From Sulfolobus sp. A20 (lineage in GTDB: Archaea; Thermoproteota; Thermoprotei_A; Sulfolobales; Sulfolobaceae), in the NCBI RefSeq assembly GCF_001719125.1, contig NZ_CP017006.1, positions 2,494,384 through 2,558,383 of the forward strand: 64,000 nucleotides of DNA. The letters are read 5' to 3'. The position numbers and the translations under genes were made by a program. Position 1 is the first letter of the stretch, and each line of letters starts with the position of its first letter. Positions 6,086 to 63,292 of this stretch are shown in pieces. Below the pieces are notes generated by a model that did no database searches, was not told the origin of the DNA, and saw only the letters and a list, made by a program, of their open reading frames with translations.

Positions 6086-6431
6086 GTGTGTGGACAACAA
6101 TTTCATCCACTCCCATATTCCAACTTATGCCAATAGATTTCGAGTAAATTGTATTGAAGAATATTTTTAGCCATCTCGTTATTGTGTTCCTTGTTGAGTT
6201 CCATGTGGAGTCCATGCTTGCTTAAGCTTCTGAAAACTTACTAAGCTTGTCAAAAGTTTCAACATCGTGTTTTAACCAAGAGAATGCCTTGTAGCCTTAT
6301 CGTGTAGGAAGACAGCTTTATCCCTCCAATTTTCCAGTATAAGCGTGGAAACTACATGAAGAATTAGCCCAGACTCGTAATGCCTAAATAATACTCACCA
6401 TTAACCCTCAAAACCTTAGTCTCATCAATAA
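6086..6431 (-). mobile_element. IS6-like fragment, transposase 3' half
   Basis: Starts with the terminal repeat GTGTGTGGACAACAATTTC and reads, on the minus strand, as the transposase C-terminal half (ENWRDKAVFLH near 6300-6345). It ends near 6431 in the DETKVL catalytic motif. It complements the fragment at 5630-5946, but the two halves do not face each other as in an intact element. This copy retains GGG where the copy at 24892-25692 has lost one G. Confidence 0.75.
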
Positions 6432-24891: not shown

Positions 24892-25692
24892 GTGTGTGGA
24901 CAACAATTTCATCCACCCCCATAAAATTCAATTTTATTCCAACTTATGCTAATAGATTTCGAGTAAATTGTGTTGTAGATTAGGAAGAATATTTTTAGCC
25001 ATCTCGTTATTGTGTTCCTTGTTGAGTTCCATGTGAAGTGTGAGTCCATGCTTGCTAGCCTATGTTTTAAGCTCCTAAAAACTAGTTCTACTAAGCTTCT
25101 CTTGCCAAAAGTTTCAACCTCGTGTTTTGCATTGAACCAAGAGAATGCCTTGTAGACTGATGCCTTATCGTGTAGGAAGATAACCTTATCCTCCAATTCT
25201 CAAGCTTAATACCATTTAATATCACATAAACGTGGAAACCACTCCTAAGACTAGTCAACATGAAGAACACAACAAGCCCAGACTCGTAATGCCTAACAAC
25301 CCATAAGTAGTAATACTCACCATTAACCCTCAAAACCTTAGTCTCATCAACGAGCAAATAATCCCCACGCTTAACATCAACCTTAACCTCATAATTAACA
25401 TTAGCCAACTTGTGAAAATAGTAGAGCAAGGTAGTGTGAGGTAATAAAGTCCTCCAACTTGACAAGCCTAGCAAGTAAGAGGTTAAGGCTAATGCAATAT
25501 CATCCAAGGAATGAAACCTAGGCTTAACACTTATATACTTTAAAAGGGTAGAGATAATTTGGGTGAGGGCGAGGAAATCAAACCTATTGATATTCTCACC
25601 CCCATAAATAACTCGCCCTCACCCTAAAAACACTTTTCCACAATAAAGAAAATTCAATTTATATCAAAACAACCAAATTGTTGTCCACACAC
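24892..25692 (-). mobile_element. IS6-family-like insertion sequence, 801 bp
   Basis: Terminal inverted repeats GTGTGTGGACAACAATTT are identical for 18 bases at both ends, and an 8-bp target duplication (AAGGAAGG at 24884-24891 and 25693-25700) flanks the element. Size, 8-bp duplication and the single DDE transposase on the minus strand fit the IS6 family. It resembles elements named ISC774/ISC735 in Sulfolobales, although I could not check the name. Related ends occur at 5630, 6086, 45443-45678 and 46496-46724. Confidence 0.85.
24909..25507 (-). pseudogene. IS6-like DDE transposase, frameshifted
   Basis: The N-terminal part (25507 down to about 25200) has the first catalytic Asp in LLVDETKVLRVNGEYYYLWV. 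The C-terminal part (25196 to 24909) has the second in VIFLHDKASVYKAF and the Glu in SLVELVFRSLKHRL. A single missing G near 25196 separates the frames: the fragment at 6300-6345 has AATTGGAGGGATAA where this copy has AATTGGAGGATAA. The reading upstream of 25507 (RFDFLALTQIISTLLKY) has no ATG, so the true start is unclear. The copy should not move by itself unless the frameshift is bypassed. Confidence 0.82.
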
Positions 25693-45442: not shown

Positions 45443-45678
45443 GTGTGTGGAAAACAATTTCATTTACTTCCACATTCCAACTTATGCTAATAGATTTAGA
45501 GTATATTTGGTGTAAGAGGTCAAGGCTAATACAATCTCGTCCAAGGAATGAAAGTAAGCTTAAAAGGTAGAGATAGTCTAGGAAATCAAGCCTATTCTCG
45601 CCCTAATAAATAACCCTAAAAATACTTTTCCACAATAAAGAAAATTCAATTTATATCAACAAATTGTTGTCCACACAC
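45443..45678. mobile_element. Non-autonomous IS6-like derivative (MITE-like, 236 bp)
   Basis: Starts GTGTGTGGAAAACAATTTC and ends AATTGTTGTCCACACAC, the ends of the IS at 24892-25692, with the middle of the transposase deleted. Remaining bits such as CAAGGAATGAAA and GAGAATAGG blocks match the IS. Left flank GCGCTA and right flank GTGCTA may be a worn target duplication. It sits just after the enoyl-CoA hydratase stop and supplies DNA up to the promoter of the PaREP1 gene. Confidence 0.8.
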
Positions 45679-45723
45679 GTGCTAAGCAGAATAAGTATAT
45701 ATATCTTGCTTTCCCTTACTATC

Positions 45724-55555: not shown

Positions 55556-56668
55556 TTAACATGTGAAATCGAGATATGATGTACTATTTACTTGTTTTTT
55601 AGCGATCTTTTCATTTACCAATACTTGAAAACCATTATCCTCGGCCTCTTTCATTAAGCTCTCTAAAATCTGAACGTGTTTGGGTTCAAAGGACGTACTT
55701 TTGCCTGTAAGTTTTAAGAAGGGTTTTATCTCATTAATTTTAATATATGAATTGTTATGGACATAATACAATTCAGCTAAGTTCGTAAATATTATCATCT
55801 TTAATAGTCCGTCCTTTATATCCTCTTCTTTGGGAAGACTTTCTGTTTTTGAATTTTTTGCCTCTATTATACATGCAGCCCCCTTTTCTAAATTTACATA
55901 TACCTCATCTATCGTCAGATGATATAGCCCTCCTAAGTAATTTTCAATATCTATAGAAGCTTTCTCACCACTTATCTTCTCTTTAGGTTGAATGGTCAAA
56001 ACTTCCCTTTGCTGAGCTTTTTTGGATTGTGACCTTGAATACTGCTGAAAATTCGTTGCGCTTTTATAAATTTCATTCGCTTTTGTAAGAGCTGATTTTA
56101 AATCATGTAAATCTACGTTCAATTTTTTAGAGATTCTTTCATATGCTTCAATGGCTTTCTTCATGAGATCTCCAATCTTATTCACTTGCGACATATTCCA
56201 ATGTAAGGCATCTGATTGCCAATTAGATAACTGTTCGAATTGAGATTTTAGATAATCATAATCATACCTTTGATCTGTTATTTTACCGGAAGAAACTTTG
56301 GAGGCATCTGAGTAATATCCTAAAATCACATAAACACCTAGTAAGCTCATGAGCGATATCGTATCCCACTGTATAAAATCTCTATCCCCGTCTTTTCCTT
56401 CATCTTTCATTACAGGGATAATAGTCACTCTTTTACCTTGATTGAACTGTAAAGTGTTATATACCCTCGCATAAGGATAAGATCTGGTACGCTTTGGTGA
56501 AACCCACCAGCTTACCGCAAATCTATCTTTCCCTAACAAGAAAATAAATGATGAGCTTTTCTTTATGCCTTCTTCCAAATTTGAGTATTCATGAAGTTTA
56601 GGCATTCTAAAAGAGGGGTTGTATCTAATACCTTTTATTTTTCCATAAAACATCATTTTAGTAGGCAA
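55556..56668 (-). CDS. Predicted restriction endonuclease
   Basis: 370 residues, no close family recognised, but LTIDEVYVNLEKGAACIIEA, then KNSK (D254, E269, K271) is a clear PD-(D/E)XK nuclease core preceded by helices rich in Lys and Gln (about 170-220). It starts 7 bases after the stop of a DNA methyltransferase gene, so the two form one operon, as expected for a type II restriction-modification system. It would cut unmethylated DNA at the methylase site. The N-terminal half may be the target-recognition part. Confidence 0.68.
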   Translation of the reverse strand: MPTKMMFYGKIKGIRYNPSFRMPKLHEYSNLEEGIKKSSSFIFLLGKDRFAVSWWVSPKRTRSYPYARVYNTLQFNQGKRVTIIPVMKDEGKDGDRDFIQWDTISLMSLLGVYVILGYYSDASKVSSGKITDQRYDYDYLKSQFEQLSNWQSDALHWNMSQVNKIGDLMKKAIEAYERISKKLNVDLHDLKSALTKANEIYKSATNFQQYSRSQSKKAQQREVLTIQPKEKISGEKASIDIENYLGGLYHLTIDEVYVNLEKGAACIIEAKNSKTESLPKEEDIKDGLLKMIIFTNLAELYYVHNNSYIKINEIKPFLKLTGKSTSFEPKHVQILESLMKEAEDNGFQVLVNEKIAKKQVNSTSYLDFTC

Positions 56669-56675
56669 TAAGCTC

Positions 56676-57536
56676 TCACCTTGACTTCTCCTCCAACTTC
56701 TTATCTATTTTCTCCCTCAATTTAGTTCTAAGATTTCTCGCATCTTCTCTCTTCGAAAATATTACATCATTATTATCGAAAAGAGTTGGATGCCCCACCC
56801 TCTCTTTTATTATTTCTTCTAGTTCTAAATCAATTTCGTATCCTATTGCATTTCTACCCAATATTTTTGCTACATATAACGTTGTTCCAGTTCCAGCAAA
56901 CGGGTCAAGGACTGTATCCCCAACGTATGAGTATAGCATTATAATTCTACTTGCAAGTTCTTCAGGGAAGGGAGCAGTATATTTTGAGTACTTGTTGTTA
57001 GGTAAAACGTTAGTTATTTCCCAAACGTTTAAGTACCACTTTTCCCTTTGGAACCTATTAACGTCTATCTTGCTCTCCTCTAATTTTGATGCTTTAAATT
57101 TGCCCGGCTTCTTGAAGACTACAATGTCCTCGTAAACGTTGTCTGGATAATAATATAAGGGGTAAGGATGCTGTATCAAAACACCACTCCTCCTACTTAT
57201 CCTTATATACCCTTCAGGCTTCTTCCAAATTATACGCTCTTGGTATTTAAAACCTAGGTTAGTCATTATTTTTATTAGATCAGCCACTATGGGATAGAGC
57301 ACACCATCTATTCTCACGTCTGATGTGACGAAAACGGCTGCTCTCCCATCATCTAATACCCTATATATTTCCTTTCCCACGTCGTTTAATAGCTGCAAAT
57401 ATTCCTCGTAGCTAGAAAAGAGGTCGGGAAAGTCAAAGGGAGCATTATAGTATGGAGGAGAAGTAAGAACAAGACCTATACTTTTATCACTAACTTCATG
57501 CATGTCCCGTGAATCTCCAAATATCACTTTAATCAT
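56676..57536 (-). CDS. Beta-class DNA methyltransferase (type II R-M)
   Basis: 286 residues. LTSPPYYNAP (motif IV, about 24-33) precedes LDPFAGTGTTLYVAKILGRN, then AIGYEID (motif I, about 210-237), the order of beta-class amino methyltransferases; SPPY favours N4-cytosine. GDSRDM near the N-terminus is motif III-like. Leaderless start (GTTATAAGACG about 29 bases before the ATG). It protects host DNA from the adjacent nuclease. The recognition site cannot be read from the sequence. Confidence 0.85.
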   Translation of the reverse strand: MIKVIFGDSRDMHEVSDKSIGLVLTSPPYYNAPFDFPDLFSSYEEYLQLLNDVGKEIYRVLDDGRAAVFVTSDVRIDGVLYPIVADLIKIMTNLGFKYQERIIWKKPEGYIRISRRSGVLIQHPYPLYYYPDNVYEDIVVFKKPGKFKASKLEESKIDVNRFQREKWYLNVWEITNVLPNNKYSKYTAPFPEELASRIIMLYSYVGDTVLDPFAGTGTTLYVAKILGRNAIGYEIDLELEEIIKERVGHPTLFDNNDVIFSKREDARNLRTKLREKIDKKLEEKSR

Positions 57537-58471: not shown

Positions 58472-59719
58472 CTATTTAAGAAATTGTTCCTCTAGCTCAA
58501 GTAAATATGCATAATTCGTATGATCTTTAACTTTTGCCTTAGGATCGATTACCTTTTGATTTAATATCTCTCCCATTGACTTATTATTCACTTTTATCTC
58601 AATTCTCTTCCTAAAAATGCTTAAACAGTGGAGAAACTCACCAATCCCATCTAAATTTCCATCTGTTAATTTATCCAAGAATATAACGTCTACCCCTCTA
58701 CTCTTAGCTGAATTAGCTACGCCTTGATCTGCCGTTATTAACGTAACGTGGTCCAATTCACCCTTCAATTTCTTAGTCTCATTTACAAATTCTACATCTC
58801 CTACATTATTACTTTCCGTAGCTAAGGGAGGAGCATGTAAGGATCTAAAGGTGTATGAAGCTAATTGAAATATTACTTGTTTTTCTCCCTTCTGAGTACT
58901 TTTAGCATAATTATCAATTTCATTGAATATAGTTCTCGTTGGCAATAGCCTTCTGCCATACTCTCTATCATAAATTAAATTACTTATTCTCGTACCTAAT
59001 TTGATATATACGTTTGTATCAGCAACGAAGAAAGAACCTTGTCTTGCTTTTTTTACTATGTCTTCCTCTTCCTTATATCTTAGCAAACCAGCCCGCGTAG
59101 CACACAATAGAACTTCATTCTCTCCCCTTTTGTACGCCTCACTCTCCTTCACGTATTCTCTTAGGTCATTAACTTCGATACCGTCTATAACTATCTTAAC
59201 TTCACCTAAAAGGGAGTAAATGTTTATTAACGCTCTTATTGAATCATCTGAAAGATCATAAGTATCTTTACCTTTTTTCACATCTATGGGATTAAATGGC
59301 ACTTGAGTACCTTGCCTTACATCTATTACTTTTACTTGATCAAACGGTATATATCCAAATACCTTATACCCTTGACTTTCATTCTTTATGTAGACATACC
59401 TAACTTCATTAGCCTTAGAGTATGCATAAACTGAAATCGCCATATATTTTCTTCCAGGCGTAATATCAGCTATATCAACATCTAAATTTGATACGTAATT
59501 TCTCCACTTCTCCACCCCCTCTCCTACGACTTCGCTTTTAACTTTGACCTCTTTGCCAAACAATGAGAGCATTTGACTTATTAATGGGATCTTCTGTTGA
59601 TTTTTAGAATCCTCTGATAAGATGTAAATCTCATCTGGCAATATCCCGGTAAACACTTCAGTTAGAATAGCATTAGTTGGAGTAACCAACTTATCTGATC
59701 CTAAAACAGCAAGTCTCAC
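58472..59719 (-). CDS. Predicted CARF-PIN nuclease
   Basis: 415 residues. N-terminal domain (about 1-140) reads as a CARF-like Rossmann fold: LAVLGSDKLVTPTNAILTEV opens it, and DVDIADITPGRKYMAISVYA at 80-99 carries the D-x-T-x-G-x-K-x-M motif used by CARF proteins to hold cyclic oligoadenylate. A linker helix region follows. The C-terminal part (about 228-350) is a PIN RNase: FFVADTNVYIK (Asp234), TRTIFNEIDNYAK (Glu267), GELDHVTLITADQGVANSAK (Asp323, Asp331). The last 60 residues are of unknown fold. GTG start, leaderless from its own strong TATA. CARF fused to PIN is known as a rare combination in archaea, and no close experimental precedent is known to me. It probably degrades RNA when a type III CRISPR signal molecule is present. 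Confidence 0.68.
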   Translation of the reverse strand: MRLAVLGSDKLVTPTNAILTEVFTGILPDEIYILSEDSKNQQKIPLISQMLSLFGKEVKVKSEVVGEGVEKWRNYVSNLDVDIADITPGRKYMAISVYAYSKANEVRYVYIKNESQGYKVFGYIPFDQVKVIDVRQGTQVPFNPIDVKKGKDTYDLSDDSIRALINIYSLLGEVKIVIDGIEVNDLREYVKESEAYKRGENEVLLCATRAGLLRYKEEEDIVKKARQGSFFVADTNVYIKLGTRISNLIYDREYGRRLLPTRTIFNEIDNYAKSTQKGEKQVIFQLASYTFRSLHAPPLATESNNVGDVEFVNETKKLKGELDHVTLITADQGVANSAKSRGVDVIFLDKLTDGNLDGIGEFLHCLSIFRKRIEIKVNNKSMGEILNQKVIDPKAKVKDHTNYAYLLELEEQFLK

Positions 59720-59740: not shown

Positions 59741-59750
59741 TATTTATATA
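59741..59750 (-). promoter_or_regulatory. TATA box of CARF-PIN gene
   Basis: On the minus strand TATATAAATA, a full archaeal consensus, centred 26 bases before the GTG at 59719. The transcript would therefore start at or next to the start codon. A second AT-rich stretch at about 59722-59733 overlaps the start site. Confidence 0.65.
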
Positions 59751-59761
59751 TCTATGCTACT

Positions 59762-60079
59762 TCATCTTGAGGTTTTGCCAGTATATAAAATACCCTTCTC
59801 CTTAAAACAGTTCTGAATTATATACTTGACCTTATCTTCTTTAAATCCAATACATGACGTTTCTATAACTTTCTCATACCTGGGATCAAACACTATTTTA
59901 CACGTTAACTTGTAATTTATCGAGTTCAATATTATCTCCACTATTATACCAATATTTACCTTAGCCTCAAATAATATCCTTAACCTATCAACTTCTATAT
60001 AGTATTGTCCAGAGTTATTCATCCCTATCTGATCGCATATTAGCAATCTTTTAATGTCCAAATCACTCACCAGCTTCAA
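59762..60079 (-). CDS. Unknown protein, third gene of membrane-protein operon
   Basis: 105 residues, no recognised family. A mixed beta-alpha pattern: IKRLLICDQIG, a beta hairpin SGQYYIEVDRLRILFEAKVN, then IGIIVEIILNSINYKLTCKI and a C-terminal helix VKYIIQNCFKEKG. It overlaps the previous gene by 17 bases, so it is translationally coupled. It sits 42 bases upstream of the CARF-PIN start. Confidence 0.55.
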   Translation of the reverse strand: MKLVSDLDIKRLLICDQIGMNNSGQYYIEVDRLRILFEAKVNIGIIVEIILNSINYKLTCKIVFDPRYEKVIETSCIGFKEDKVKYIIQNCFKEKGILYTGKTSR

Positions 60080-60401
60080 CTAAAACAGTCAATTGTTCTT
60101 CACATTTTATCCCCTTATTCTTAAATAATGGGTTTAACCTATTCTCGACTTCTTTTGCTATACACTCAATATACTTCTCCATTCCTTCTGGGACCTCAAT
60201 TAACTTATAATAGTATATTTTACCAGACAAAAAAGGTGGAGGAACATAAGCTCCTAACGTTGAGTTACTTCCTATATAATCTACATAGAGAACCCTAGCT
60301 TGAGTCCTAATTATTAACACTAAGTTTCTCTCTAAAGCCAATTTACCCTTAACTTGAGATGGGAATACTTCAATACCCTCAATCCTCACCTTTATAAGCA
60401 T
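60063..60401 (-). CDS. Unknown protein, second gene of membrane-protein operon
   Basis: 112 residues, no recognised family. Beta-rich start (MLIKVRIEGIEVFPSQVKGK, LVLIIRTQARVLYVDYIG), a Gly/Pro segment (GAYVPPPFLSGKIYYYKL) and an alpha-helical end (EKYIECIAKEVENRLNPLFK). It overlaps the membrane gene by TAATG and the next by 17 bases. Similar size and layout to the next gene suggest, weakly, that the two may pair. Confidence 0.55.
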   Translation of the reverse strand: MLIKVRIEGIEVFPSQVKGKLALERNLVLIIRTQARVLYVDYIGSNSTLGAYVPPPFLSGKIYYYKLIEVPEGMEKYIECIAKEVENRLNPLFKNKGIKCEEQLTVLVEAGE

Positions 60402-60796
60402 TATCCGAACATCTCCTTTTGGATCCTAGCGTAGTAATACAAGTCTACTATTTGGATCAGACATAACGCCATTATCGAGATTATAAAGATTAGAATATCA
60501 AATGGTGGTTTAAAATATAGCCAGTACGCAGAGTATATAATTATGGCTAAGACGGATTTAGATATTCCGTAATATTCAGCGTACTTCAAGCTCATGCTTA
60601 TCATACCTAATATTAACGCATTAAACACACCTGAAATTAGTGGGACAGCTGTCAATATTGCCTTAACGTCCGGATTAGATATTGGTAAAGGTTTGATCAA
60701 GAGTAATGTAAATAATGATAAGGAAAGTATAACGTTTACCGAATATAATACAGATGAGGAAATGAGGACGATCCTATTTAAGGATCTTAAATCCAT
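60401..60796 (-). CDS. Small membrane protein, first gene of operon
   Basis: 131 residues, four predicted membrane helices (about 8-33, 46-68, 80-93, 97-118) with a short basic end (YYYARIQKEMFG). A GGGAG ribosome-like site lies six bases before the ATG, and TATA-like boxes lie near 60811-60840. It heads the operon that ends before the CARF-PIN gene. Membrane proteins next to CARF nucleases are known among type III accessory effectors and could mean membrane disruption or anchoring. This is inference from position. Confidence 0.6.
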   Translation of the reverse strand: MDLRSLNRIVLISSSVLYSVNVILSLSLFTLLLIKPLPISNPDVKAILTAVPLISGVFNALILGMISMSLKYAEYYGISKSVLAIIIYSAYWLYFKPPFDILIFIISIMALCLIQIVDLYYYARIQKEMFG

Positions 60797-61724: not shown

Positions 61725-61820
61725 ATGAGAGCTCAATTAGAAAAACCCATTCAACGTTTAAAATACAAGAAGACTAACTTTGCTAGTAGGGACGTGTTTT
61801 TTACTAGAGGGTTAGATTAA
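61725..61820 (+). CDS. 31-residue leader ORF coupled to the next gene
   Basis: MRAQLEKPIQRLKYKKTNFA and then SRDVFFTRGLD. Basic at the N-terminus (pI high). The stop TAA overlaps the ATG of the next gene (TAATG), so it is translationally coupled. The last 11 residues echo the start of the next protein (RDVFFTRGLD versus MDVFFIPPLD), matched by a 30-base imperfect direct repeat at about 61790-61820 and 61822-61853. It may be a true leader peptide or a remnant of the original N-terminus. Confidence 0.5.
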   Translation: MRAQLEKPIQRLKYKKTNFASRDVFFTRGLD

Positions 61821-63292
61821 TGGACGTATTTTTCATACCCCCTTTAGATAATGATACTTCCCTCTTCTTAGAAATAAAATTGGATGAGGAAATACCAGAA
61901 GGGGAATATGAGATAAGAATACACGATGGTAGGTTAGAGAGGTTAAGGGCTAAGGTGAAAGTCCTTCAACCGACTAAGGTGATAAGGATTAATAAGGCTG
62001 ATGAAATCATTGAATTCCCATCTATCTTAAGTGAGGAATGGAACTTAACGTTATTCCTTAAGGGGAGGGGTTTAGAGAAATCTCATGAATTTCAGGTTAA
62101 AATTAATACTTCCTTTAATTCCTTTTCGTTCAGATCGGAAATTCATAAGCATTATAACATAATTTCTAAAATAGAGAGACAATATGGACAGTTAGACCAT
62201 AACTCTGCCTTAGCTTTAGCTTTTATATTAGACAACGGATTCTCAGAAGTCTTCCTATATAAAGATAAGAAATATGAGAAGTTAAACCTTCATATTGCGA
62301 GGAGTAACTGGGATGATGAATTCATTAGATTAATAAAATACGTAAAGGATAGCCAAACATATCTAGTATTCTTATTGGACGACCTATATGACGATCAAGG
62401 TAAGAATGAGTTCAGTGAGGGGATATTTACGCAATCATTATTACCCCCAGATGAGGCTTTGAGAAAGGTAGGAGTCATTAGCTCTTTAACAGGTTACCCA
62501 ATGTTATATAACTACGTCTCTAACGTAATAAGACAATTTAAGGTTAAGCTGTTAGGCATTATTGGTAAAAGCGATGAAAGAGATTACTTACTGTTCGCTA
62601 AGATCTTACCTATCATATACAAGCGTAAGTTCAAGCTACCAAAATTTCTAATCCATAAGAGGAGTATGATTAAAGAAATTAACGTTGATAAGGCAATAGA
62701 CCTATCCTTAACTCAAGGAGACGTAGTAATAAAACTTCATAACGAGGACCCTGAAAAATATTTAGACAAAGTAAAGGTAAACGCACTGAAGTGCTTCACG
62801 CTCACTCTTAACCCTTCACGTAATATTAGCTTTCCAGTAATTAGGAAAGATATTTCATCAGATGACCTATTGACTATAGTAAACTCAATTGACGGAGAGT
62901 ATACCTTTGATTTTTTGGGTACACATTCCCACTTCTTAAAAGTAAACAAGGGTTTGATAGTATTCTCTCCAAAGTATAGATGTAAACATTTAATTTTCAA
63001 TTACACTGGAGTTTACAATAGTCAACATAGTAATAAGATCGCAACATATCTAGGAGTAGCTAGCGGGAATAGGACAAGTGAGAACTTAGAGATCCCATCA
63101 TATCTATTTAGGCAGGAGCATATTTTGGGAATAATCCACTTAATGAAGAATGGCTTCGTTGAGTTGTTCCACGTTTCGAGATCGTATCCTCATAAAAGAG
63201 TTTTAATAAGGGCGCTAGAGGAAGTTAAATTGCCGTTTGAGGCGTGGGTAGAGAGTCAAGCCGTTTACACTGATAGATGGTCCCTAATTTGA
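61820..63292 (+). CDS. Unknown 490-residue protein
   Basis: No recognised domain. It has an N-terminal beta-rich part (about 1-100: LFLEIKLDEEIPEGEYEIRI, LRAKVKVLQPTKVIR), a middle helical part (about 115-270), and a C-terminal part with FNYTGVYNSQHSNKIATYLG and EHILGIIHLMKNGFVELFHV (about 390-445). No transmembrane helix or signal peptide. It overlaps the leader ORF (TAATG), and the next gene begins 10 bases later with a GAGGTGACC site, so an operon of at least three ORFs. Length and lack of similarity suggest a component of an accessory or defence system; this is not proven. Confidence 0.6.
   Translation: MDVFFIPPLDNDTSLFLEIKLDEEIPEGEYEIRIHDGRLERLRAKVKVLQPTKVIRINKADEIIEFPSILSEEWNLTLFLKGRGLEKSHEFQVKINTSFNSFSFRSEIHKHYNIISKIERQYGQLDHNSALALAFILDNGFSEVFLYKDKKYEKLNLHIARSNWDDEFIRLIKYVKDSQTYLVFLLDDLYDDQGKNEFSEGIFTQSLLPPDEALRKVGVISSLTGYPMLYNYVSNVIRQFKVKLLGIIGKSDERDYLLFAKILPIIYKRKFKLPKFLIHKRSMIKEINVDKAIDLSLTQGDVVIKLHNEDPEKYLDKVKVNALKCFTLTLNPSRNISFPVIRKDISSDDLLTIVNSIDGEYTFDFLGTHSHFLKVNKGLIVFSPKYRCKHLIFNYTGVYNSQHSNKIATYLGVASGNRTSENLEIPSYLFRQEHILGIIHLMKNGFVELFHVSRSYPHKRVLIRALEEVKLPFEAWVESQAVYTDRWSLI

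Follow-up and report, generated by a model that had tools for sequence, protein, structure and literature searches.

A CARF-PIN gene of Sulfolobus sp. A20, a probable cyclic tetra-adenylate-activated ancillary effector of type III CRISPR immunity

Proteins that join a CARF domain to a PIN domain belong to a described kind. A 2014 survey described two families in which CARF is fused to PIN (PMC4012209), and PIN is listed among the effectors of cyclic oligoadenylate (cOA) in a 2021 review (PMC7854544) and in the 2025 CRISPR classification (PMC12669027). CARF-PIN effectors nevertheless belong to the less explored branches of cOA immunity. The CARF-HEPN RNases Csx1 and Csm6 likewise have a CARF domain joined to a nuclease, with HEPN in the place of PIN, while the cyclic tetra-adenylate (cA4)-gated nucleases Can2 and Card1 have a PD-(D/E)xK nuclease as effector. 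Two structures of a CARF-PIN protein, SiRe_0806 of Sulfolobus islandicus, were released on 2025-07-23: PDB 9JXW (apo) and PDB 9JXX, a crystal with cA4, whose entry title gives the complex and says nothing of activity. A literature search for a paper on SiRe_0806, 9JXW or 9JXX found none.

The stretch of DNA analysed here (the window, 64,000 nucleotides) covers positions 2494384-2558383 of the single-contig genome of Sulfolobus sp. A20 (2,688,317 bases). It contains, on the minus strand, a reading frame with a GTG start and 415 open codons, the stop being included in the coordinates. This 415-aa frame is a real gene. Its features, in window coordinates and with the evidence for each, are as follows.

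58472-59719, minus strand: CARF-PIN gene, 415 aa (open reading frame, PADLOC match, homologs, predicted structure)
59270-59719, minus strand: CARF domain, residues 1-150 (VIA-align 2 matches to CARF structures)
59441-59467, minus strand: CARF motif DxTPGRKYM, residues 85-93 (alignment of 29 homologs)
58658-59041, minus strand: PIN domain, residues 227-354 (profile match and structure matches)
59018-59020, minus strand: PIN acid D234 (invariant)
58919-58921, minus strand: PIN acid E267 (invariant)
58796-58798, minus strand: PIN acid D308 (invariant)
58727-58729, minus strand: PIN acid D331 (invariant)
59741-59750, minus strand: TATA-like box TATATAAATA, -31 to -22 from the GTG (sequence)

The protein is a member of a known family by profile test. 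PADLOC model CARF_m3--CARF_PIN (PDLC01982) matches residues 1-414 with E 5.1e-154 and model CARF_PIN (PDLC01068) gives E 2.2e-53; the match is full length and we saw no difference from the family. Three marks of the family were found, namely a CARF fold with the DxTxGxK motif, a PIN fold with conserved acids and the full-length profile match; a further mark, binding of a cyclic oligoadenylate, is seen in the ortholog SiRe_0806 (9JXX). Searches of Pfam and NCBIfam produced no passing match for the protein (the Card1 CARF model fell below the cut-off), and in the PF09651 family search the controls gave no match. An earlier note on this DNA had called a PIN partner of CARF rare and not known to be described biochemically. 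Read as saying that such proteins are all but undescribed, this is contradicted by the 2014 survey, the PADLOC models, the 2025 classification and the ortholog crystallised with cA4. The gene is therefore real and not new, given the PADLOC family, the 2014 survey and the crystallised ortholog SiRe_0806; its kind was already known.

Structure prediction from a single sequence reached pLDDT 35, and a nine-sequence alignment was used instead, yielding a model with pLDDT 89 and pTM 0.89. Foldseek ranked SiRe_0806 structures first to fifth, including the cA4 complex 9jxx (E 4.5e-47). The model superimposes on SiRe_0806 with Z 44.6 and rmsd 2.2 over 396 residues at 42% identity (VIA-align 2); phmmer against 9jxw gives E 1.1e-89, and a profile of 29 homologs gives E 6e-161. 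Residues 1-150 match the CARF domains of Can2 with cA4 (7bdv; Z 13.3, 127 residues, rmsd 3.1), of the ring nuclease Sis0455 (7z55; Z 11.8) and of Card1 (6wxw; Z 11.6), and residues 227-354 match the PIN domains of SMG6 (2hww; Z 10.1) and of the Archaeoglobus PIN protein AF0591 (1o4w; Z 9.7), all by VIA-align 2. The fold is thus CARF plus PIN. The 29-homolog profile also matches AF0591 directly (1o4w, E 0.0029, residues 219-343). With Can2 and Card1 the protein shares the common CARF fold and ∼13-18% identity, the nuclease domain being of another type. A CARF sensor joined to a PIN nuclease, as proposed in the earlier note, is accordingly what the family profile, the predicted structure and the solved ortholog agree on; the structural comparison suggested there for the N- and C-terminal parts returned both folds, and the domain borders it had drawn fit the matched ranges well.

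Conservation was read from an alignment of 29 homologs with identities of 29-52%. The motif D-x-T-x-G-x-K-x-M, which had been pointed out in the first third of the protein, is indeed present from D85 to M93 and is almost wholly invariant (D85, T87, P88, R90, K91 and M93 invariant, G89 nearly so). For the PIN domain, three of the four acids that had been named, D234, E267 and D331, are invariant. The remaining one, D323, varies among homologs and was rejected as a catalytic acid; the invariant fourth acid, overlooked before, is D308. When more distant members were included in a second alignment, D234, E267, D308 and D331 were again the conserved PIN acids and D323 was again variable. Together with a 42%-identical relative, SiRe_0806, the 29-homolog alignment provides a sharper list of residues for mutation, with D308 in it and not D323.

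SiRe_0806 and the A20 protein have the same length, domain order and fold and the same PIN and CARF motif residues, but they stand on different branches of the family tree. The A20 protein groups (support 100/99, seven rows) with proteins from four further genera, whereas CARF-PIN members of its own genus fall into two separate branches, and SiRe_0806 sits in one of these. Because of this placement the two proteins may be old paralogs or may have been separated by transfer; either an old duplication with loss or transfer between genera would fit the tree.

Relatives of the gene are widespread, being encoded in 28 of 31 Sulfolobaceae genomes and in 35 of 214 genomes of the whole order. In a scan of genome contigs the alignment-based search found eight matches and a single-protein query found zero; no relative was found in the viral contigs searched. 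Some copies are damaged. In one genome (G205:C1:1536395-1537631, L033) CARF and PIN are encoded by separate, neighbouring frames of 172 and 283 aa, so this copy is split or frameshifted. Another genome has a second copy broken by an internal stop (G191:C1:1350579-1351909) besides an intact copy at 1289078. Two Desulfurococcales contigs (L040:40-3215 and L041:9992-13165) encode distant CARF-PIN proteins (22-23% identity) followed in conserved order by genes of similar size (447/439 aa and 148/148 aa); the first of these genes in L040 encodes a PLP-dependent enzyme, a non-CRISPR function.

The A20 genome has the systems that such an effector would serve. Near 6-13 kb of the genome is a III-B locus that encodes Cas10, Cmr1 and Cmr3, and at 25-28 kb a second, III-D-like Cas10 with an adjoining Csx1; the III-D label is our reading of PADLOC matches and of likeness to the locus of genome G185, the best PADLOC models being general Cas10 ones. 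Both Cas10 proteins have the HD motif and an intact GGDD (at 674 in the III-B and 625 in the III-D protein), so the ligand could plausibly be made. A I-D locus is situated at the opposite contig end, and three stretches of the genome carry CRISPR arrays. The type III locus that the earlier note proposed to look for within 50 kb is absent from the A20 genome: the nearest Cas10 is ∼143 kb from the CARF-PIN gene if the contig is circular, and we found no Cas gene near it and no CRISPR array within the 64-kb window. Of two marks of type III ancillary effectors, the A20 genome shows one, a Cas10 whose cyclase motif is intact; the other, a gene placed within or next to a type III locus, is seen in G185 and not in A20.

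In several relatives the gene does have CRISPR neighbours. It adjoins a III-D locus and an array in G185, a I-A locus in G182 and G186 (in G186 also an array of 108 repeats), and Cas6 and an array of 101 repeats in G184. CARF-PIN genes lie within 50 kb of Cas10 in 6 of the 21 genomes that have both genes, against 1.5 expected, with a P-value of 0.002 that is uncorrected for relatedness and is too favourable since the genomes are related. Across relatives the gene is nearer to Cas10 than by chance.

We put at about 0.85 the probability that this CARF-PIN protein is an ancillary effector in type III CRISPR immunity, orthologous to SiRe_0806 and working through a chain from cA4 to cleavage. Its most likely function is that of a cA4-activated nuclease serving type III systems in trans. 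On detection of invader RNA, the III-B or III-D complex would make cA4 through its Cas10; a dimer of CARF domains would bind it, and the change would be relayed to the PIN domains, which would become active. Metal ions would be held by D234, E267, D308 and D331, and nucleic acid, most likely RNA, would be cut, with slower virus growth or a dormant cell as the outcome. For the A20 protein we infer the binding of cA4, the activation, the substrate, RNase activity and the service at a distance to both type III systems. Two observations count against this reading: the ∼143 kb that separate the gene from the nearest Cas10, and the existence of four relatives, 93-99% complete, that keep an intact CARF-PIN gene and have no detectable Cas10.

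These four (G184, L027; G178, L007; G194, L031; G177, L013) gave no Cas10 with a palm-domain model or with two queries of full-length Cas10, which succeeded in the control genomes G195 and G185. G184 is a single contig (99%); the genomes of G178 and G177 are not closed. In G184 and G178 the PIN acids are intact and no RAMP match was found either. One could suppose that the signal for CARF-PIN is not type III cOA, the protein being near-core in Sulfolobaceae, tied to no single type III locus and responsive, where Cas10 is missing, to a nucleotide from another source. We think this very improbable: the ortholog was crystallised with cA4, the A20 genome has two Cas10 proteins, and recent loss of Cas10, or a Cas10 too divergent to be detected, is the simplest reading of the four genomes. 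The near-universal presence of the gene, these genomes included, does raise a small question as to the signal served.

Other alternatives keep cA4 and change what the domains do with it. The enzyme might be a cA4-gated DNase, or cut both RNA and DNA, with CARF as proposed and a PIN domain that cuts DNA. PIN folds include DNA-cutting enzymes, and Can2 and Card1, whose CARF domains match best beyond the family itself, have unrelated nuclease domains able to cut DNA. However, the RNase SMG6 is among the best PIN matches, and most PIN domains in defence and toxin proteins act as RNases (PMC4012209); a DNA substrate appears to us unlikely. The CARF domain might also, or mainly, degrade cA4 as a ring nuclease, so that the protein would limit its own signal. 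Some CARF effectors cleave their ligand, and the Sulfolobus ring nucleases Sso2081 and Sis0455 are matched with Z ∼11-12, but no better than CARF effectors without such a role, which makes this possibility a decidedly slim one. The cA4-activated nuclease thus remains our preferred reading.

Upstream of the gene, TATATAAATA occupies the place of the TATA box of a leaderless Sulfolobus transcript, in agreement with the leaderless promoter proposed earlier. An A/T-rich box stands at the matching place in most CARF-PIN homologs, so the box is ordinary for the clade; the strength of expression, which had been judged high, is not readable from it.

Just downstream of the gene is a type II restriction-modification pair (55556-57536, minus strand), in which the restriction enzyme matches PADLOC REase_II (E 6.3e-179) and the DNA methyltransferase matches Pfam N6_N4_Mtase (E 1.2e-49); the gene thus has a defence neighbour. 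Also nearby are four proteins that match no family, one of 490 aa and three small ones (61820-63292, plus strand, and 59762-60796, minus strand). Elsewhere in the window, copies of a dispersed repeat family with ATTGTTGTCCACACAC-like ends occur at 6086-6428, 24892-25350 and 45443-45694; these ATTGTTGTCCACACAC-type repeats are probably copies of one insertion element.
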